A DNA stretch of 64,000 nt from contig CAJXLV010000009.1 in the NCBI GenBank assembly GCA_913056185.1, positions 1 to 64,000 of the forward strand. The letters run 5' to 3'. Position 1 is the first letter of the stretch. Each line of letters starts with the position of its first letter. The translations under genes and the position numbers were made by a program. This document shows positions 31,739 through 41,369 of this stretch, piece after piece. The notes under the pieces are model-generated. The model ran no database searches. It had not been told where the DNA came from and saw nothing but the letters and a program-made list of their open reading frames with translations. Source of the DNA: an uncultured Bacteroidota bacterium. GTDB taxonomy: Bacteria; Bacteroidota; Rhodothermia; Rhodothermales; Salinibacteraceae.

Positions 31739-33076
31739 CTACTTGTGCGCCGCCCCGTCGGGTGCCATCCAGTCGCGGTGCGGGCGGAGCCGGGCACGGA
31801 TGAGGTCGGGGCGTTCGTGTCCGGGGGTGCCGTCGGTGGCATAGGCATCGAGGAGGGCATCGGGGGAGGGCAGGGTGGGGGGCGAGGAGGCGGCGGCCTG
31901 CTGGTAGGCGGTACGGAAGGGGACGCCGTCGGCAACGCGGGTCAGTGCCTGCTGCGTGGCAAGCAGTGCGGGGGAGCAGGCGCGCCAGGTGGCGTCGGCC
32001 GAAAACTCCGTGCTCCGCACGACCGTTGTGAGGGCCGTAAGAACGTCCCCCGCGATTTGAACGCTGCGCATCACCGCGCCTTTGGTCAGCTGTAGGTCGC
32101 GGTGGTAGCCGCTGGGCAAGTTGGCGGGGCCAGTGCTCAGGTGCTGCATTTCAGCAGCGAGGCGGTGATGGTAAGCGCGGGCCAGTTCCAGGACGTCGGG
32201 GTTTTGTTTTTGTGGCATAATGCTGCTGCCCGTGCACGAGTCGTCCGGGAGTGTTACAAAGTCGAACTCGGCGCTGGCAAACAGCACAAGGTCCGAGGCG
32301 AGCCGGTTGCAGGCAGCGCCGACCTGCGTGCAGGCGTGCGCGACAGCGAGCTCGTGCTTGCCGCGACTCAGCTGGACGGCCGTGGCGTGGGTGTGCGCGG
32401 TGCGAAAACCGAGGCGATCAGCGATGGCGGCCCGGGGAAGATCGAGAACGGGCACGCCGTAGCCGGCGGCACTTCCGAGGGGGGAGACGTTGATGCGGCG
32501 GCGGGCCTGGTGGAGGGTGTCGAGGTCGTCGGCCAGGGTTTCGGCATAGCCCAGGGCCCAGAGGGCGACGGTGGAGGGCATGGCCCGCTGGAGGTGAGTA
32601 TAGCCGGGCAGGGGCTGGCGCGGGTGCCGGTCGGCAAGGGCACAGAGGGCCTCGGCGAGGCGCGCGGTGCGGCGGCCCAGCATTGCGAGGGCATCGCGGA
32701 GGTAGAGGCGAAGCGCTGCGAGGACCTGGTCGTTGCGCGAGCGACCTGTATGCAGCTTGCGCCCGGCCGGGCCGGCCCTGGCGGTCACGAAGCGTTCGAT
32801 GACCGTGTGGCTGTCTTCATCGTCGGGGGTTACAGTGCGCTCGCCGGCCTCGTAGGCGGCCAGGAGTGCATCCAGGGCCTCCTGAAGGGCATTCCATTCC
32901 TTCTCCGACAGGACCTCGATCTGCCGAAGCCCCCAGGCGTGTGCCCGGCTTGCCCGGATGTCGTAGGGCAGCAGTTGGCGGTCCCATTTGTAGTCGTCGC
33001 CCACCGTGAAGCGATGCGCCCAGTCGTCTGAGTCGGGGGCACTGCTGGAATCTGTATGCCAGAGGGGAGTACTCAT
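31739..33076 (-). CDS. argH: Argininosuccinate lyase
   Basis: HTGRSRNDQVLAALRLYLRDA, GSSIMPQKQNPDVLELARA. Confidence 0.95.
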   Translation of the reverse strand: MSTPLWHTDSSSAPDSDDWAHRFTVGDDYKWDRQLLPYDIRASRAHAWGLRQIEVLSEKEWNALQEALDALLAAYEAGERTVTPDDEDSHTVIERFVTARAGPAGRKLHTGRSRNDQVLAALRLYLRDALAMLGRRTARLAEALCALADRHPRQPLPGYTHLQRAMPSTVALWALGYAETLADDLDTLHQARRRINVSPLGSAAGYGVPVLDLPRAAIADRLGFRTAHTHATAVQLSRGKHELAVAHACTQVGAACNRLASDLVLFASAEFDFVTLPDDSCTGSSIMPQKQNPDVLELARAYHHRLAAEMQHLSTGPANLPSGYHRDLQLTKGAVMRSVQIAGDVLTALTTVVRSTEFSADATWRACSPALLATQQALTRVADGVPFRTAYQQAAASSPPTLPSPDALLDAYATDGTPGHERPDLIRARLRPHRDWMAPDGAAHK

Positions 33077-33123: not shown

Positions 33124-34188
33124 TCAGTGCGATCCAAAATAGCGCTGGAGGAGGGTCTGGTAGACGTCGACCGCGCAGCGGACCTCCGCAATTGAAATGC
33201 GCTCATCGGCCGTGTGGGAGCGGGGGCTCTGCCCCGGCCCCATCTTCACCGTGGGCACGTCGTTCAGGAACACCCAGTCGGAGGTGGTGGAGGAGCCGAT
33301 GGCAGTGGGGCGCGGACAGGCGGCTCGGGCGGCGTGGGCGATGCGGGCATCCGGGGGCGTGGCGCAGGGAACGAGGCGGTCGCTGTGGACCGTCACGTCC
33401 GCGTCTACGGCCGCCTGGATGTGGGCTACGATTTCATCGTGGGAATAGGCGGGGGTGGTGCGCAGGTCCACCACGAAGACACAGTGGGCGGGCACCGTGT
33501 TGCGGGCACTTCCGCCCTCGATCGTGGTCACAGTTTTGGTGATTGGGCCGAGGTGCGGATCTTCGCGGTCGAAGGACACCGCGGCAAGCTGATGGAGAGC
33601 ATCTGCGGCGGCGGAGATGGCGTTGCTCCCGAGGTGGGGCCGGGCAGCGTGGGCCGCCGTGCCGTGGGTGTGGATTTTAAGAATCAGCAGCCCCTTTTGG
33701 GCAACACACGGGCGAAGCGCTGTGGGCTCGCCCACGACCGCCGCAGAGAGAGGCGGAAGGTGGGGGCGCAAGTCTTGAAGGCCGTTTTTGGACCCGCCGC
33801 CTTCCTCATGCGTCGTGAGCCCCACGACAGCGCGTCCGCCATCGGGCACCCACCCGTCGGCCGCCAGGCGGAGCAGGGCCGTCGTCATGGCCGCGCCGCT
33901 CGCCTTTGCATCCACGCTCCCCCGTCCGTACAGCACCCCCTGCTTCGTAACCGGAGTAAAGGGGTCGTACGGATGAGATGCCGCAGGCGGCACCACATCC
34001 AAATGAGAATTTAGCAGCAGCGTATCCCTGCCGCTCCCGACGCCGAACGCGACGTTATCTTCGTGCCGCAGGACGTCCACCCCGGCAGAGCGGGCGCGGC
34101 GCTCAACGTAGTCGGCCACGTCTGTCTCCTTGCCCGTGAGGGACGGAAACCGAATGAGGGTTTTCAAGAGGTCGACAACGTCGGGCAT
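33124..34188 (-). CDS. argE: M20-family deacetylase (acetylornithine/acetyl-lysine deacetylase-like)
   Basis: LIRFPSLTGKETDVADYV, LLNSHLDVVPP, YGRGSVDAKASGAAM, VGLTTHEEGGG; position in the arg operon. Confidence 0.85.
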   Translation of the reverse strand: MPDVVDLLKTLIRFPSLTGKETDVADYVERRARSAGVDVLRHEDNVAFGVGSGRDTLLLNSHLDVVPPAASHPYDPFTPVTKQGVLYGRGSVDAKASGAAMTTALLRLAADGWVPDGGRAVVGLTTHEEGGGSKNGLQDLRPHLPPLSAAVVGEPTALRPCVAQKGLLILKIHTHGTAAHAARPHLGSNAISAAADALHQLAAVSFDREDPHLGPITKTVTTIEGGSARNTVPAHCVFVVDLRTTPAYSHDEIVAHIQAAVDADVTVHSDRLVPCATPPDARIAHAARAACPRPTAIGSSTTSDWVFLNDVPTVKMGPGQSPRSHTADERISIAEVRCAVDVYQTLLQRYFGSH

Positions 34189-34242: not shown

Positions 34243-35040
34243 TCAGCGGACAATCTCCGTGGCCCGTGCCCGCGTCACGAGGTCTGCCGCGCCGCAGATG
34301 TACACTTCGTCGACGGGGCCGCGGAGGGCGTCGAGTGCGGTTTCGACCTTCACCTGCATGCCGCCTGCGATCCAGCCGTCGCGGATGCCCTGTTCGGCGG
34401 TGCCTGCATCGCAGGTGGGCAGGCGGGTGGGGGCGGCCGAGGCGTCCCGGCGGACTGCCCCTGCCGCGGTAACGTACAGGAGCCGTCTGGCGGCGAGGGC
34501 GCGGGCCAGGGCGCAGGCCACGGTGTCCGCGTTGACGTTGTAGACGTGCCCTGCCTCGTCGATGCCGAGGGGCGCCACGATGGGCACCAGGGACTGCTGG
34601 AGTAGGCCATTCACAAGCGTCGGGCGCACCTGTTCGATGTCGCCGACCCATCCAAAATCAATCGTCGTGTCGTTCACGGTCCACGGCGGGCGTTTGGACA
34701 CGCGGACCAGGCCGGTATCGGCTCCGGAGAGGCCCACGGCAGAGAGGTCGTGGCTCTGCGCGGCGGCCACAAGCTGTGTGTTGAGGGAGCCGGACAGCGT
34801 CCACTGGGCGATTTTTAGGTCCAGGTCGGTGGTGATCCGTCGTCCGTCGATTTGCTTCGGTGTGTGCCCGAGGCGCTGGGCGAGGGCGGTCATCTGCACC
34901 CCGCCGCCGTGGACGATCACGACGGAGGCCTCCTGGCAGAGGGCTTGCAGGGGGGGCCAGAGGGCCTCCAGCGCGTCCGCATCGTCCAGGAGCGATCCGC
35001 TGACCTTTACGACGGTTGGGGGGCGAGAGGCGTTGGGCAT
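34243..35040 (-). CDS. argB: Acetylglutamate kinase
   Basis: TVVKVSGSLLDD, VIVHGGGVQMTALAQRLG, PIVAPLGIDEAGHVYNVNADTVACALARAL; start ATG 35040. Confidence 0.93.
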   Translation of the reverse strand: MPNASRPPTVVKVSGSLLDDADALEALWPPLQALCQEASVVIVHGGGVQMTALAQRLGHTPKQIDGRRITTDLDLKIAQWTLSGSLNTQLVAAAQSHDLSAVGLSGADTGLVRVSKRPPWTVNDTTIDFGWVGDIEQVRPTLVNGLLQQSLVPIVAPLGIDEAGHVYNVNADTVACALARALAARRLLYVTAAGAVRRDASAAPTRLPTCDAGTAEQGIRDGWIAGGMQVKVETALDALRGPVDEVYICGAADLVTRARATEIVR

Positions 35041-35093
35041 TGCAGAAAGGAGAGCGCTGGAGCAATGAAGGGCGGGCAGAGGCGAGGCGATGC

Positions 35094-36149
35094 TCAATCG
35101 AGGCGCCATACGTATTCGAGGAGTGCCTTTTGGGCGTGGAGCCGGTACTCGGCCTGGTCGAGATGGGCAGCGTGAGGGCCGTCGAGCACCGCCCCGTCCA
35201 CCACCACGTTGCGGCGTACGGGGAGGCAGTGCAGGAAGGCGGCCCTGTCGGTGTGAGCCATGTCCTCCGCAGTGATGCACCAATCGGCATGGGCAGCCCG
35301 GGCTTCCGATTCGCGAGAAGGAGCAGTGTACTGCATCGGGCCGCCCCATGACTTCGCGTACACCACGTCCGCCCCGTCCAGGGCCGCGGCTTGGTCCGTC
35401 GTGGCGGTCACCGACCCGCCGTGCGCCTCGGCGGCAGAGCGGGCCGCGGCCCGCACGTCCGGATCGAGCGCATGCGTGTCGGGCCGCGCCACGGTGATGT
35501 CCAGTCCGCAGCGAGCTGCCATGCGAAGCGTCGTATTGGGAACGGCCATGGGAAGCGGCTTTGGATGCGGGGCCCAGGACAGCACGAACTGGGTTCCCGA
35601 CAGCGCGTCCCCACAGCGCTCCGTGAGCAGGGCGGCATCGGCAAGGCCCTGGCACGGGTGGGCCCAGGCCGATTCCAGATTGAGCACCGGAACAGTGGCG
35701 TAGTCGGCCACGGCCCGCATGAGCGTGTCCCGCTTGTCGGTGTCGTAGTGCGTGCCGGAGGCAAAAACGCGGACACCCAGGGCATCGTGGTAGCGTGAGA
35801 GAACGCCGATGGCCTCCCTGGCATGTTCGGCCGCGGGTCCGTCCATCACGGCGCTCGGGTCCCACTCCAGCCCCCAGCCTTCATCGTCGGGCACGAGGGT
35901 GGTGTGGTGGGCGCCCAGGTGTGCCGCGGCCCCCTCCATGGAGGTGCGAGTGCGGAGCGAGGGATTCATGAAGATGAGGCCGATCGACTGCGTGGACGCT
36001 GCGCCCCGGCCGCGGTCGTCGTTGTGCCGGTGCGCCACAGCCGCGTGGCGGAGCCGGTTCCAGGAGGCGTCCGGCAGGGCATCAATCCGAAGCACGTGCC
36101 GCAGGGCGGAGGGTGGGGACGAGGGCGGGGAGGAGGATAGAGAAGGCAT
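35094..36149 (-). CDS. argF': N-acetyl/succinyl-ornithine carbamoyltransferase (ArgF' type)
   Basis: FMNPSLRTRTSMEGAAAHLG, HPCQGLADAALLTE, FLHCLPVRRNVVVDGAVLDG. Confidence 0.85.
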   Translation of the reverse strand: MPSLSSSPPSSPPSALRHVLRIDALPDASWNRLRHAAVAHRHNDDRGRGAASTQSIGLIFMNPSLRTRTSMEGAAAHLGAHHTTLVPDDEGWGLEWDPSAVMDGPAAEHAREAIGVLSRYHDALGVRVFASGTHYDTDKRDTLMRAVADYATVPVLNLESAWAHPCQGLADAALLTERCGDALSGTQFVLSWAPHPKPLPMAVPNTTLRMAARCGLDITVARPDTHALDPDVRAAARSAAEAHGGSVTATTDQAAALDGADVVYAKSWGGPMQYTAPSRESEARAAHADWCITAEDMAHTDRAAFLHCLPVRRNVVVDGAVLDGPHAAHLDQAEYRLHAQKALLEYVWRLD

Positions 36150-36217: not shown

Positions 36218-37390
36218 TCAGGACTCGTCGAGGGCCGCCCGGAGCGCATCGGCAAACGTGTCCACGTGCGCGTCCGAGACGATGAGGGGCGGCATCAGGC
36301 GCAGGACGTGGGGGTCGGAGGAGGTTCCGGCAAGCACGTTGTGGGACCGGAGCGCCTCGACGACAGGCGCGACGGGGCGGTCACACCGAAGCCCGATCAG
36401 GCACCCGCGCCCACGGACCGCCTCCACCAGCGGGCCCACGCGTGCCGCGAGGCGGGCATGAATCTGTTCGGCGCGCGACATCAGCTCGTCGTCGACCAGG
36501 GTGCGCAGGGTAGCCTCCACGGCGGCCATCGCCAGCATGCCGCCGCCAAACGTGGAGCCCTGGTCGCCCGTCTCCACTGTATCGGCAACCGCATCGTCTA
36601 CGAGAACAGCACTGACCGGCACGCCGCCGCCCAGGCTTTTGGCAAGCGAGAGGAGGTCGGGGGTGGCGCCTAGGGACGTGCTCATCGAAAAAGTGCCCGT
36701 GCGCCCCACGCCGGTTTGCACCTCGTCGAATGCGAGGAGCGTTCCGTAGCGGTTGCACAGGGTGCGCAAGCCCTGTACGTAGCGGGGCGGCACCTCGCGC
36801 ATGCCGGCAATGCTCTGAATCGGCTCCAGCAGCACAGCCGCGTACTCTTTCGTCGACAGCACCCGCTCGGCCGTCTCCAGATCGCCCACCGGCAGCCAGG
36901 TCGTATCCGGGAGCACCTCGGCGTACGGTGCGCGGTCGGTCGCGTCGTGCGTGGTGGCGAGACTGCCGAGCGTGCGGCCGTGCCATCCGCCCTTCAGGGC
37001 GGCGATGCCGGACCGCCCCGTGTACGTGCGGGCCAGCTTGAGCGCCGTTTCATTGGCCTCGGAGCCGGAGTTGGCGAAAAAGACGTGTCCCAGTCCTTCA
37101 GGCGCGAGGGTTGCAAGCCGCCGGGCCGCCTGCGCACGCACAGGGCTGTGCGCCACGTTGGAATAAAACAGAAGCGTTTCGGCCTGCGACTGCACAGCTT
37201 CGACGACGGCCGGGGGGCAGTGGCCGAGCAGCGACACGCAGTGTCCGCCGTAGAAATCGAGGTAGCGACGTCCCTCCGTGTCCCACACGTACGCCCCGCG
37301 TCCGCGGACCAGAGCCATCGGCAGCTTGTCGTAGGTTGGGAGCTCGAGGCGTTGCTCCAAGGAAATGGGGTCGGTCGGGAGAGTCGACAT
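36218..37390 (-). CDS. argD: Acetylornithine aminotransferase
   Basis: VFFANSGSEANETALKLARTYTGR, LLAFDEVQTGVGRTGTF, GSTFGGGMLAMAAVEATL. Confidence 0.92.
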   Translation of the reverse strand: MSTLPTDPISLEQRLELPTYDKLPMALVRGRGAYVWDTEGRRYLDFYGGHCVSLLGHCPPAVVEAVQSQAETLLFYSNVAHSPVRAQAARRLATLAPEGLGHVFFANSGSEANETALKLARTYTGRSGIAALKGGWHGRTLGSLATTHDATDRAPYAEVLPDTTWLPVGDLETAERVLSTKEYAAVLLEPIQSIAGMREVPPRYVQGLRTLCNRYGTLLAFDEVQTGVGRTGTFSMSTSLGATPDLLSLAKSLGGGVPVSAVLVDDAVADTVETGDQGSTFGGGMLAMAAVEATLRTLVDDELMSRAEQIHARLAARVGPLVEAVRGRGCLIGLRCDRPVAPVVEALRSHNVLAGTSSDPHVLRLMPPLIVSDAHVDTFADALRAALDES

Positions 37391-37404: not shown

Positions 37405-38460
37405 TTAAGCGAGGGAAGAAGCGGAGGGGGACACCGACAGCCCGGCTGTTTCGGGAACGCCAAGGGCGCGGTTGAGGGACTGGAGGGCCTGGCTTGCCGC
37501 CCCTTTGAGGAGGTTGTCGAGGGCAAAGCCAACGACCAGCGTATTTCCCTCTGTGGTCCAGCCCAGGTCACAGAAAGGAGTACGGACCGTCGGTTTGAGC
37601 GACGGCAGCCCGTCCCGCAGCCGCACGCAGGGCGCGTCCGCGTAGGCGTCTTCGTACCATTCGGCAAGGGTCGCCGCCGGGACGGGCATCGTCCATTCCA
37701 CCTGCGCCGTCCCCCAGATGCCGCGGGTCCACGGCCCAGACGCGGGGACAAACTGGAGGGAGACGTGCGGCCCGAGCGTTTGACGGATCTCGGGCTCATG
37801 CTGGTGGGCCAGCACCTTGTAGGGCCGGACGTTGCCCGCCCGGTCGGGGAAGTGAGTGGTGGCAGACGGGAGGGCACCGGATCCCGAAGCGCCCGTGAGG
37901 GCGGTCACGTGGGCGGTAAAGGGGACCTTTTGGTGTGCCAGTGGGGCGAGGGCAAGGGCAATGCCGGTGGCATAGCACCCCGGGTTTGCAATCAACGGCG
38001 TGTCCGGCAGCGCATCAGTCCACTCCGGAAGGCCGTACACCGCAGTGCGAAGCAGGGCCGGCGCTGGGTGCGTCACGTCATACCAGTCGGCGTAGAGGGC
38101 CGGGGTGCGGAGGCGGAAGTCGGCACTCAGGTCCACAATCGGCCCATCCAGTCCGTTTGCAAGGAGGTCCGGCACCGTCTTCATGCTCTGGCCGTGTTCG
38201 CCGGCCACCAGCAGCGCATCCAGCGCGTGGAGATCCGCCTCGTCCGGCGCAACGAAGCGCAGAGGGGCCTGCCCGGCGAGCGACGGATGCGCGGCGCTAA
38301 GGGGCTCGCCGGCAAACGTGCGGCTCGTGACGGTGTGAAGGGTCGCACGGGGATGCCTCGCCAGGAGGCGAAGGAGCTCGCCCCCTACGTAGCCGGCGCC
38401 GTGCAGAAGCCCGATGCGGGCGATAGGGGCAGATGAAGAATCGGCGGGTGCAGGGGGCAT
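37405..38460 (-). CDS. argC: N-acetyl-gamma-glutamyl-phosphate reductase
   Basis: IGLLHGAGYVGGELLRLLARHPRA, LIANPGCYATGIALALAPL, TGASGSGALPSATTHFPDR. Confidence 0.93.
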   Translation of the reverse strand: MPPAPADSSSAPIARIGLLHGAGYVGGELLRLLARHPRATLHTVTSRTFAGEPLSAAHPSLAGQAPLRFVAPDEADLHALDALLVAGEHGQSMKTVPDLLANGLDGPIVDLSADFRLRTPALYADWYDVTHPAPALLRTAVYGLPEWTDALPDTPLIANPGCYATGIALALAPLAHQKVPFTAHVTALTGASGSGALPSATTHFPDRAGNVRPYKVLAHQHEPEIRQTLGPHVSLQFVPASGPWTRGIWGTAQVEWTMPVPAATLAEWYEDAYADAPCVRLRDGLPSLKPTVRTPFCDLGWTTEGNTLVVGFALDNLLKGAASQALQSLNRALGVPETAGLSVSPSASSLA

Positions 38461-38538: not shown

Positions 38539-39672
38539 TCAGTCTGCCGAGACAGTGAGGGCGTCGTCGGCGTCTGGCGGAGCCGTCTCGGGAGGCGGAG
38601 TCGCATCGTCCGGAACCGTAGACGCAGGCAGCGCCTCCAGCACCGCCGAGACGAGGTCCGTGCGTTCCTGGAGGGCGTTGTGGGCGGGGATGCCCAGCCG
38701 CTGGCGGATGTAGCGACGGCCGACGCCGCTATCCGTCACGGGCCCAGTGAGCGCCGTAATGGCAGCGCGGTACCGGCGCCGAAAGGTATGAGCGGCGGCC
38801 CAGGCCCCGGCCAGGTCGGTTGCGGCAACGACGTGCGCCTCGACAAACGACTGCAACTCCATGTCCGTGAGCAGGTCGTCCACGCCGTAGTAGCCCACAA
38901 ATCCATCGCCCATTTCGGCCACGATCACGTCCAGCGTCGCGGTATCGTTGAGGTGCTGGATGATGCCCTTCGCCACGGGGGTGATGGCGTCTTCCACCGT
39001 ACACGCAATGCCCACGTCGGTGAACGTAGAGACGGCAGAGGCTCCGTGTGCCTGCATCCGGCGAACGTCGCGCAAGAGCGCGGCGCCGGTCAGCTTGGCC
39101 GCCCCCACCTGTAGGCCGACTTCCGTGAGCCCCTCCACGATCTGGCAGGCCGCCTTCGTCTTTCCCGTATCCATCGCCGTGCCACTGATCACCACAAGCG
39201 GAACGGAGGCGGAAAGGCGGTCGACCATTTCCAGGGCCTCCTCCTGGATGCGAGCGTGCAGCCATTGCCCCTCCCGCTCCACCATGGCCGCCCCGAGCAC
39301 CTCCACCGGCAGCGCGGGGCCGAGGTCGGGGTGGGGGGCTGTGCAGCGCCCCATCAGGCCGCCCATATTGAGTACATGCAGGGTGTCGCCGGGGTCGATG
39401 TGGCGCGGAACCCGCCCGCTGTAGCCCTTGAGGGCTTGCCGTCCGCCCAGGGTGCCCACCAAGACGTCGCCCGCCTGGATGTGACGAAAAACGCCGTCGT
39501 CGCACTCGACCTCGTCGTACTGCGTTTTCTCATCCAGCGCCCGCACCACCACCAGGTAGCCGTGCTGGGCCACTACGTACGGAGAGAGAGGAACGGGCGA
39601 GCTCACCTCGCAATGGGCCGTGCTGGAGGCAATCTTGTCGACCGCACAGGTCTGTAGGGTGTCGTCGATCAT
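38539..39672 (-). CDS. P-loop NTPase-fold protein (BioD/CbiA-like, possibly DUF1611-like) within the arg operon
   Basis: LVVISGTAMDTGKTKAACQIVEGLTEVGLQVGAAKLTGAALLRDVRRM; EMGDGFVGYYGVDDLL; start ATG 39672 between argG and argC on the same strand. Confidence 0.75.
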   Translation of the reverse strand: MIDDTLQTCAVDKIASSTAHCEVSSPVPLSPYVVAQHGYLVVVRALDEKTQYDEVECDDGVFRHIQAGDVLVGTLGGRQALKGYSGRVPRHIDPGDTLHVLNMGGLMGRCTAPHPDLGPALPVEVLGAAMVEREGQWLHARIQEEALEMVDRLSASVPLVVISGTAMDTGKTKAACQIVEGLTEVGLQVGAAKLTGAALLRDVRRMQAHGASAVSTFTDVGIACTVEDAITPVAKGIIQHLNDTATLDVIVAEMGDGFVGYYGVDDLLTDMELQSFVEAHVVAATDLAGAWAAAHTFRRRYRAAITALTGPVTDSGVGRRYIRQRLGIPAHNALQERTDLVSAVLEALPASTVPDDATPPPETAPPDADDALTVSAD

Positions 39673-39736: not shown

Positions 39737-40951
39737 TCAGCCCCTACCGCGTTTGGGGGCGGGGCCAGTTGCTTTTTGGGCCAGGAGCGAAGGGACTGCT
39801 GCAAGCCGGGTGTAGCCTGCGGCGTCGCGCCCATCCCACAGCGCGTTTTGCTCCCCGTAGGTGGCCGTATCGGCATCAAACAGAGAGTGGGGGCTGTCCA
39901 CGCCCTGCACCTGCACCCGTCCCTTGTAGAGCTGGACAGAGACGGTGCCAGCGACGACCGACTGGCTGTGGTCCAGGAAGGCTTCGAGGTCTCGCATGGC
40001 TGGGTCGAAGTACTGCCCCTCGTGCAGCAGCCGTCCGTAGGCTGCCCCCAGCTGTTGCTTGTGCACCTGTTGCCACTTCGAGAGCACCACCTTTTCCAGT
40101 TCGCGATGGGCCGTGATGAGAATATGGGCTGCGGGGGCCTCCACGCCGATCCGGCCCTTGATGCCCAGGATGGTGTCGCCCACGTGGATGTCGCGCCCAA
40201 TGCCGTGGGCGGCCCCGCGGGCATTGAGGGCTTCCACGAGGGCGACGCCGGAGAGGGCTTCGTCGTCTACGGCAATCGGGAGGCCGTCCTCGAAGGTGAG
40301 GGTGAGGGAGGCGGGCGTCTCGGGCGCCTCGATGGGGGGCACCGTATCGGGGTACGCAGACGCCGGGAGCGGGTGGGTGGCCGTCAGGGTCTCAGCGCCA
40401 CCGATGGTGGTGCCCCACAGCCCACGGTTGATCGAGTAGTCTGTGGTCGCCTCTGGCACCGCGATGCCACGGGCCTCCAGAAAGGCGGTGGACTCCTCGC
40501 GACAAAGGCCGAGCGAGCGGACGGGCGCAAGAATGTCCAGGTCCTCGTCCATCAGCCGCAGTGCCACGTCGAACCGCACCTGGTCGTTGCCCGCCCCCGT
40601 GGACCCGTGTGCGACCCGGGACGCCCCCACGTCCTGCGCTACGCGCGCCACCGCCCGCGCCTGCACGACTCGCTCCGGCCCCACGCACAGCGGATAGACC
40701 CCGCCGCGCAGGACGTTGCCCTTAATGAGGTACGAGAGATGATCCGCATAGAGCTCTGGCCGCCCCTCCACAAGATGGTGCGCCTCCGCCCCGAGGGCGT
40801 CCGCACGGTCCGCCACCGCCTCGCGGTCCGCCGTGGAGAGGCCGCCGGTGTCCACCGTCACAGTGTGGACGGACGTGTCGTAGGTTTCGCGCAGGTAGGG
40901 AACGCAAAAGGAGGTATCGAGTCCTCCGCTAAAGGCAAGAACAATGGGCAT
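39737..40951 (-). CDS. argG: Argininosuccinate synthase
   Basis: IVLAFSGGLDTSFCVPYLRETYDTSVHTVTVDTGG, VAHGSTGAGNDQVRFDVAL; start ATG 40951. Confidence 0.95.
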   Translation of the reverse strand: MPIVLAFSGGLDTSFCVPYLRETYDTSVHTVTVDTGGLSTADREAVADRADALGAEAHHLVEGRPELYADHLSYLIKGNVLRGGVYPLCVGPERVVQARAVARVAQDVGASRVAHGSTGAGNDQVRFDVALRLMDEDLDILAPVRSLGLCREESTAFLEARGIAVPEATTDYSINRGLWGTTIGGAETLTATHPLPASAYPDTVPPIEAPETPASLTLTFEDGLPIAVDDEALSGVALVEALNARGAAHGIGRDIHVGDTILGIKGRIGVEAPAAHILITAHRELEKVVLSKWQQVHKQQLGAAYGRLLHEGQYFDPAMRDLEAFLDHSQSVVAGTVSVQLYKGRVQVQGVDSPHSLFDADTATYGEQNALWDGRDAAGYTRLAAVPSLLAQKATGPAPKRGRG

Positions 40952-40993: not shown

Positions 40994-41028
40994 AAAAAAG
41001 GCGCTGGCTCGTGAGAACCAGCGCCTTT
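40994..41028 (-). terminator. Transcription attenuator/terminator hairpin in the argG leader
   Basis: Minus strand AAAGGCGCTGGTTCTC-AC-GAGCCAGCGCCTTTTTTGTG: long GC-rich stem and 6-nt T run, located between the leader ORF stop (41070) and the argG start (40951). Confidence 0.88.
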
Positions 41029-41069
41029 GGCAACAAGGCGGCAATGCCGCGTCAAATGGGAGGGGCGCC

Positions 41070-41180
41070 TTATGCATCCATCCCCCAGACGCTGGTTCGA
41101 ACCGTGGACGTGTGCAGTCGTCGCACACGTCGGGCTCGACGTCGGGTCGTGGGGGCGATGTGAGAAAGGCGGCGTGTCAT
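41070..41180 (-). CDS. argL: Arginine-rich leader peptide (36 aa, 10 Arg) of the arg operon
   Basis: Minus-strand ATG at 41180 to TAA at 41070: MTRRLSHIAPTTRRRARRVRRLHTSTVRTSVWGMDA; Arg codons CGC CGC, CGA CGT CGA, CGA CGT, CGA CGA, CGA; 9-bp hairpin GACGTGTGC/GCACACGTC over the Arg cluster; followed by antiterminator/terminator segments. argL is my proposed symbol. Confidence 0.8.
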   Translation of the reverse strand: MTRRLSHIAPTTRRRARRVRRLHTSTVRTSVWGMDA

Positions 41181-41369
41181 AACGGCTTCTACACTAAGAG
41201 GTGGATCTGGCTTTCGCAAGGTCCGGCCCGGCCCTCTTCGGTAAAGAAATTGTTAATCAAGAAATGAAGGCGGTGCGGCCGTGCCCGAACGGCGAAGACC
41301 GTGGCGGGTATGAACACCGTCGTTCTCAAGTCCTTCTCCAATCTCTCAGAGATCCCCTGCACCGCCTGC

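Follow-up and report, generated by a model that had tools for sequence, protein, structure and literature searches.

In bacteria, arginine biosynthesis is the textbook example of a repressor-controlled pathway, with ArgR or AhrC as the repressor. The attenuators of trp, his, leu, thr, ilv and phe operons, described in Proteobacteria and in some Actinobacteria (PMC1262725), combine a leader ORF that carries codons for the end product with mutually exclusive antiterminator and terminator structures. A survey of Actinobacteria reported finding no RNA structure ahead of arginine operons (PMC1262725). In Sinorhizobium meliloti, the trpL (rnTrpL) transcript starts at the leader ATG and is thus leaderless, and the trp operon is not under transcription repression (PMC7298713). 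The nearest case in the open-access literature that we searched is the Arg-codon-containing leader of Salmonella speF, which works by a different mechanism (PMC6386406). An attenuator of a bacterial arginine biosynthesis operon was not found in that literature; subscription papers were outside the scope of the search, so that priority cannot be asserted. Likewise, no Arg-codon attenuator of an arg operon was found in Rfam, Pfam or NCBIfam, and the main texts of Naville and Gautheret (2010) and of a 2021 RNA survey of 26 genomes contain neither an arginine attenuator nor Salinibacter.

Here, we describe the region upstream of argG in the window, by which we mean the whole 64,000-nucleotide stretch of DNA that was analysed, and compare it with the corresponding loci of relatives. 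We conclude that this element is very likely a ribosome-mediated transcription attenuator of the trp/his/leu type, which senses the charging of tRNA-Arg and controls argG-orf-argCD-argF-argBEH, a conclusion that is inferred from sequence alone. The original prediction had proposed such an attenuator, and comparative tests of sequence support this interpretation. Its description of the leader ORF, the hairpin over the Arg codons, segment 2 and the terminator was confirmed base for base on the minus strand; the gap between the terminator and the argG start at 40951, given as about 43 nt, is corrected to 45 nt.

The argG leader and its distribution

The features of the locus are collected in Table 1. 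Taken alone, the window locus provides only modest statistical support for the clustering of Arg codons (p = 0.007), and its leader RNA is predicted to fold into a structure much more stable than those of shuffled sequences (z = -6.0). Segment 2 (41098..41087) and segment 3 (41026..41015) can form a pairing of 12 bp. The arg genes follow on the minus strand in the order argG-orf-argCD-argF-argBEH, and their cotranscription is inferred. Since the next gene upstream of the leader in the window appears to be divergent, the minus-strand terminator should act solely on the argG transcript. As a separate observation, the stretch CATTTGACGCGGCATYGCCGCC (41037..41058, minus strand) between the leader stop codon and the terminator is nearly invariant in five Salinibacter-type loci, where its conservation equals that of the terminator; it includes a small hairpin and has no known role.

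Table 1. Positions of the leader elements and arg genes within the window
Feature	Coordinates	Strand	Remarks
Predicted promoter	41191..41219	-	-35 TTGCGA (41219..41214), 17-nt spacer, -10 TAGTGT (41196..41191), 10 nt before leader ATG
Leader ORF	41070..41180	-	Read as 41180..41070, encodes MTRRLSHIAPTTRRRARRVRRLHTSTVRTSVWGMDA and a stop codon; 36 aa, of which 10 Arg; mRNA probably near-leaderless, translation inferred
Segment 1	41136..41156	-	Stretch of ORF with predicted protector pairing (1:2) to segment 2 absent a stalled ribosome
Putative regulatory Arg codon cluster	41118..41144	-	Codons 13-21: CGA CGT CGA GCC CGA CGT GTG CGA CGA
9-bp hairpin over Arg cluster	41107..41131	-	GACGTGTGC-gacgact-GCACACGTC; private to the window's genome
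Segment 2	41087..41098	-	GAACCAGCGTCT; 5' arm of antiterminator; within ORF, some 30 nt ahead of its stop
Segment 3	41015..41026	-	AGGCGCTGGTTC; common to antiterminator (2:3) and terminator (3:4)
Intrinsic terminator	40994..41028	-	14-bp stem (3:4) at 41028..40997, tetraloop, T run; -24.7 kcal/mol
argG, argininosuccinate synthase	39737..40951	-	First structural gene; TIGR00032
P-loop-like ORF between argG and argC	38539..39564	-	GTAMDTGKT stretch; no significant Pfam/NCBIfam family
argC, N-acyl-glutamyl-phosphate reductase	37405..38460	-	PF01118, PF22698, PF02774
argD, class-III aminotransferase	36218..37390	-	PF00202
argF-type carbamoyltransferase	35094..36149	-	PF02729, PF00185
argB, acetylglutamate kinase	34243..35196	-	TIGR00761; exact start undetermined
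argE-type deacylase	33124..34188	-	ArgE/DapE family TIGR01910, E 5e-47, under curated cut-off
argH, argininosuccinate lyase	31739..33076	-	TIGR00838

To place this locus among its relatives, argG genes were located by protein search and the DNA upstream was then inspected. Conservation of the Arg-rich ORF in relatives had been set beforehand as a test; it was passed, and the terminator and antiterminator are kept as well. A promoter, followed almost at once by an Arg-clustered ORF of 18-52 codons and then by an intrinsic terminator, precedes argG in 70 of 88 loci, all within one class and spread over about 20 families. The set recognised first comprises 66 loci from about 65 genomes, 39 lineages and 19 families (two of the loci, L024 and L045, represent one genome). 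In these 66 loci every leader peptide contains Arg-Arg and Arg accounts for 24% of residues, and the peptides share almost nothing except this Arg richness and clustering. The leader starts of this set were picked partly by Arg content, a bias that is addressed by two blind tests, one using the first ATG (see below) and one scanning the fetched DNA in full (2.44 Mb, the two strands taken together) for an Arg-cluster ORF followed by a terminator. The scan returned 44 matches, 41 of which are argG leaders and three background, and it contributed four argG leaders to the total (L131, L136, L151 and L154). At least five Arg codons per 12-codon window occur in 41 of 48 argG upstream regions vs 11% of shuffles, and Arg clusters are retained in AT-richer relatives, for example L145-L153. 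Outside the class, the arrangement is absent at all 74 argG loci sampled, and none of these 74 upstream regions contains six or more Arg in 12 codons.

Of the 88 loci within the class, 18 lack the element or retain it in decayed form, namely most of those in family f15 (one family within the order), the examined loci of f18 and a few others; attenuation is therefore not the universal means of arginine control in this class. Individual leaders show further peculiarities, which we record as such. In two f15 loci (L138 and L140) a hairpin, GGCGCTGATT...GATCAGCGCC, still lies before argG with its T run broken, and resembles a decayed attenuator. In family f14, L024 and its duplicate L045 carry a second terminator-like hairpin inside the leader ORF and over the Arg cluster, formed by GCATTTTCGTCGCGCCTGCGACGAGGATGC and then TTTCTTTTT with a T-rich tail; the leader DNA of L026 and L028, from the same family, is similar by eye to that of L024.

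The transcription start, which could have refuted the original prediction had it lain downstream of the terminator, is partly addressed: in most loci the best predicted promoter match is found just upstream of the leader ATG. The match in the window itself is weak (7 of 12 positions); relatives have TTGACA/TATCGT-like boxes with the same spacing, and in 48 of the 66 loci the leader ATG follows sigma-70-like boxes at a distance of 6-11 nt. Where the promoter score is good (49 loci), the leader start coincides with the first ATG past the -10 box in 39 cases, and the mean number of Arg codons is 6.5 in the leader frame vs 2.9 and 2.8 in the other two. Because the promoter boxes adjoin the ATG and the first ATG is mostly the leader start, the leader mRNA is likely to be leaderless or nearly so. 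Both the start site and the translation of the leader remain inferences.

Competing pairings and codon choice

Covariation was measured by permutation, comparing the pairing of each segment with its own partner to pairings with partners swapped between lineages, without a covariance model. Segments were assigned from the best duplexes, a procedure in which the permutation handles own and swapped partners equally. For the antiterminator (2:3), the summed duplex energy over 39 lineages is -721.5 kcal/mol with own partners vs -566 +/- 17 kcal/mol with swapped ones (z = -9.0), and none of 50,000 permutations was as good (p = 2e-5, the lowest value that the test can return). The signal persists when each family is represented by a single locus (z = -7.0); the same test gave z = -0.03 for a control region upstream of the leader and z = -0.8 +/- 1.0 for dinucleotide-shuffled segment 2 regions. 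The arms of the terminator (3:4), used as a positive control, covary with z = -13.2. Thus the compensatory changes in the competing stems that the original prediction called for are found, with 2:3 and 3:4 both covarying between lineages, and for 2:3 they can be seen directly in pairs such as GAACC/GGTTC, GAATC/GATTC, TGGACTG/CAGTCCA, GAAGATT/AATCTTC and GAAGGA/TCCTTC.

The protector pairing (1:2) covaries more weakly than 2:3 (z = -4.1 to -5.6 vs -1.2 +/- 0.9 for shuffles), and in loci of the Rhodothermus type (L013) segment 1 can be seen to be almost a duplicate of segment 3. The bases involved are other than those of the 9-bp hairpin noticed originally, which is present in the window but is not conserved in the alignment of relatives. 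As a candidate for the conserved 1:2 stem this hairpin was rejected, being absent from sister species, and 1:2 pairing of other bases is supported.

The geometry of the leaders is also informative. By median distance, segment 2 lies 16 nt beyond the end of the Arg cluster, the ORF ends 29 nt after segment 2 begins, and the terminator follows 33 nt further on; the start of segment 2 falls within the ORF in 65 of 66 loci. We infer from this spacing that segment 2 is placed such that a ribosome on completing the ORF would mask it and one halted at the Arg cluster would leave it free. When the fold of the window leader begins at the edge of a ribosome that is stalled at codons 13-21 and takes in the whole of segment 3, the minimum free energy structure is the 12-bp 2:3 helix; folded without a ribosome, segment 2 is buried. 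At equilibrium, the full leader of the window reaches about -52.6 kcal/mol vs -41.1 kcal/mol up to segment 3, and with segment 4 present the terminator is favoured by roughly 11 kcal/mol. Because the terminator is the more stable structure at equilibrium, antitermination must be a kinetic trap in which the order of transcription events is decisive. Classical attenuators also depend on the order of events during transcription, and in the E. coli trp leader, too, the antiterminator is the weaker of the two helices.

The choice among synonymous Arg codons differs strongly between the leaders and the genes that follow them. Of the Arg codons, CGA accounts for 39% in the leaders and for 5.7% in the corresponding argG genes (odds ratio 10.7, p = 7e-45; 40 of 42 loci); relative to argG, CGT is raised too, and CGC and CGG are lowered. 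In a congener (G003), from which the tRNA-Arg genes were read, we identified the anticodons CCG, CCT, TCG and GCG (L185, L191, L193 and L195) and did not find a tRNA-Arg with an ACG (inosine) anticodon. With none of the latter kind found, CGA should be decoded by tRNA-Arg(UCG). Elf and Ehrenberg discuss a theory of selective charging in which attenuator leaders favour those codons that are most sensitive to supply (PMC1183508), and it is possible, by inference, that CGA is the most supply-sensitive codon in these leaders.

Proposed mechanism, ArgR absence and rival explanations

All the features of trp/his/leu-type attenuation that can be tested by sequence are met here, namely an ORF enriched in end-product codons, a terminator, an antiterminator that shares an arm with it, a protector and suitable spacing. 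Comparison between genomes establishes that the Arg-rich ORF and the terminator are conserved, that the 2:3 and 3:4 pairings exclude one another and covary, that the leaders have the spacing and codon bias described above, and that ArgR is missing. Ribosome stalling and the response to arginine are inferred, as are the start site, leader translation and cotranscription mentioned above, and there are no transcript, start-site, ribosome or expression data. In the mechanism that we propose, the transcript would begin at the leader ATG or a few nt before it, and a ribosome would trail RNA polymerase along the Arg-rich ORF. When Arg-tRNA is ample, the ribosome would reach the stop codon and segment 2 would be covered or paired to segment 1; with segment 2 sequestered, segments 3 and 4 would form the terminator and transcription would halt before argG. 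When Arg-tRNA is scarce, the ribosome would stall at the CGA/CGT cluster and leave segment 2 free to pair with the emerging segment 3, which would pre-empt the terminator and allow the operon to be transcribed. A bolder reading, which we put forward tentatively and consider slightly more likely to fail than to hold, is that the attenuator replaced ArgR early in the class as the main transcriptional sensor of arginine, reading chiefly the rare CGA codon via tRNA-Arg(UCG) and thereby reporting the charging of a single isoacceptor, as selective-charging theory predicts.

Neither the window's own genome nor any of the 120 sampled near-complete genomes of the class encodes the C-terminal domain of ArgR (PF02863), and 59 of 60 genomes of the order lack it as well; eight control genomes, including Bacteroides, were all positive in these searches. 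The sole ArgR of the order (G060; L144, G060:C181) is encoded directly before a divergent argG of 48% identity, and possibly reflects acquisition or a contaminating contig. Since the repressor is absent, the reading of the leader as an ArgR operator was rejected. Rfam covariance models, that of the T-box included, gave neither a match to the leader at gathering score nor a weaker one that was plausible, and a T-box, riboswitch or other Rfam family was rejected on this basis; known leader-peptide families were rejected as well, the leader peptides having no match in Pfam or NCBIfam, including the SpeFL domain. In a simple scan of six genomes, no His- or Leu-type leaders were seen before hisG and leuA.

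Among rival explanations, the one that survives best, and which we regard as unlikely, is an arrest peptide, in which the nascent Arg-rich peptide together with free arginine or ornithine as ligand would stall the ribosome and so choose between the same RNA structures. SpeFL, TnaC and the fungal arginine attenuator peptide are examples of such peptides. A leader peptide and alternative structures are expected under both mechanisms, and orf34 of the Salmonella speF leader employs two Arg codons in arginine-dependent control (PMC6386406). However, the leader peptides resemble each other in almost nothing beyond Arg content and clustering and match no family in the databases named above, the strong synonymous bias to CGA is not required by a mechanism acting at the peptide level, and arginine as the arrest ligand would give inverted logic for a biosynthetic operon. 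A second possibility is that a constitutive terminator or processing site is accompanied by a chance ORF arising from CGA/CGT-rich DNA, for example the operator of an unknown repressor. In its favour, Arg-rich ORFs are common in a GC-rich genome, the p values of single loci are modest, and CGACGT repeats could resemble a DNA motif. We nevertheless consider it very unlikely, given that the terminator should serve only the argG transcript, the upstream gene being apparently divergent, that the Arg codons follow the frame of the promoter-proximal ATG, that 2:3 covaries between families, and that the Arg clusters remain in the AT-richer relatives. Finally, direct binding of arginine by a riboswitch-like element, the ORF being incidental, would account for a structured leader with a terminator and a folding z of -6.0, but is all but excluded by the lack of any Rfam match, strong or plausibly weak, by the 1:2 / 2:3 / 3:4 competition being the sole conserved structure seen, and by the conservation of in-frame Arg codons.

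Comparison with described systems

If the attenuator reading that we favour is true, arginine joins the amino acids under ribosome-mediated attenuation, and a class-wide replacement of a repressor by an RNA switch is suggested. The leaders would also offer a natural test of selective tRNA charging (CGA vs CGC) and a regulatory element for Salinibacter and Rhodothermus genetics. ArgR/AhrC repression and arginine T-boxes serve the same physiological task, whereas nearly all the genomes examined here are without ArgR and the leader is without a T-box match. The speF leader orf34/SpeFL of Salmonella is similar in having consecutive Arg codons and an arginine-dependent choice of mRNA structure (PMC6386406), but it controls ornithine decarboxylase via Rho, RNase G and translation, and it is characterised by a conserved domain of the peptide (PF10940) rather than by a run of Arg codons with an intrinsic terminator. 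S. meliloti trpL resembles the Arg leader in its start of transcription at the leader ATG, which is a prediction in our case, and differs in its Trp codons, its alphaproteobacterial host and the trpE(G) operon that it precedes. The closest likeness in design is to the trp/his/leu-type attenuators, with which the element shares the end-product-codon leader ORF and the exclusive antiterminator and terminator, and in which segment 2 is likewise positioned for masking by a ribosome at the stop codon. Unlike these, the present element uses arginine and occurs in a Bacteroidota-related class, and its leader ORF starts a few nt from the predicted transcription start and apparently stands in for the missing ArgR.
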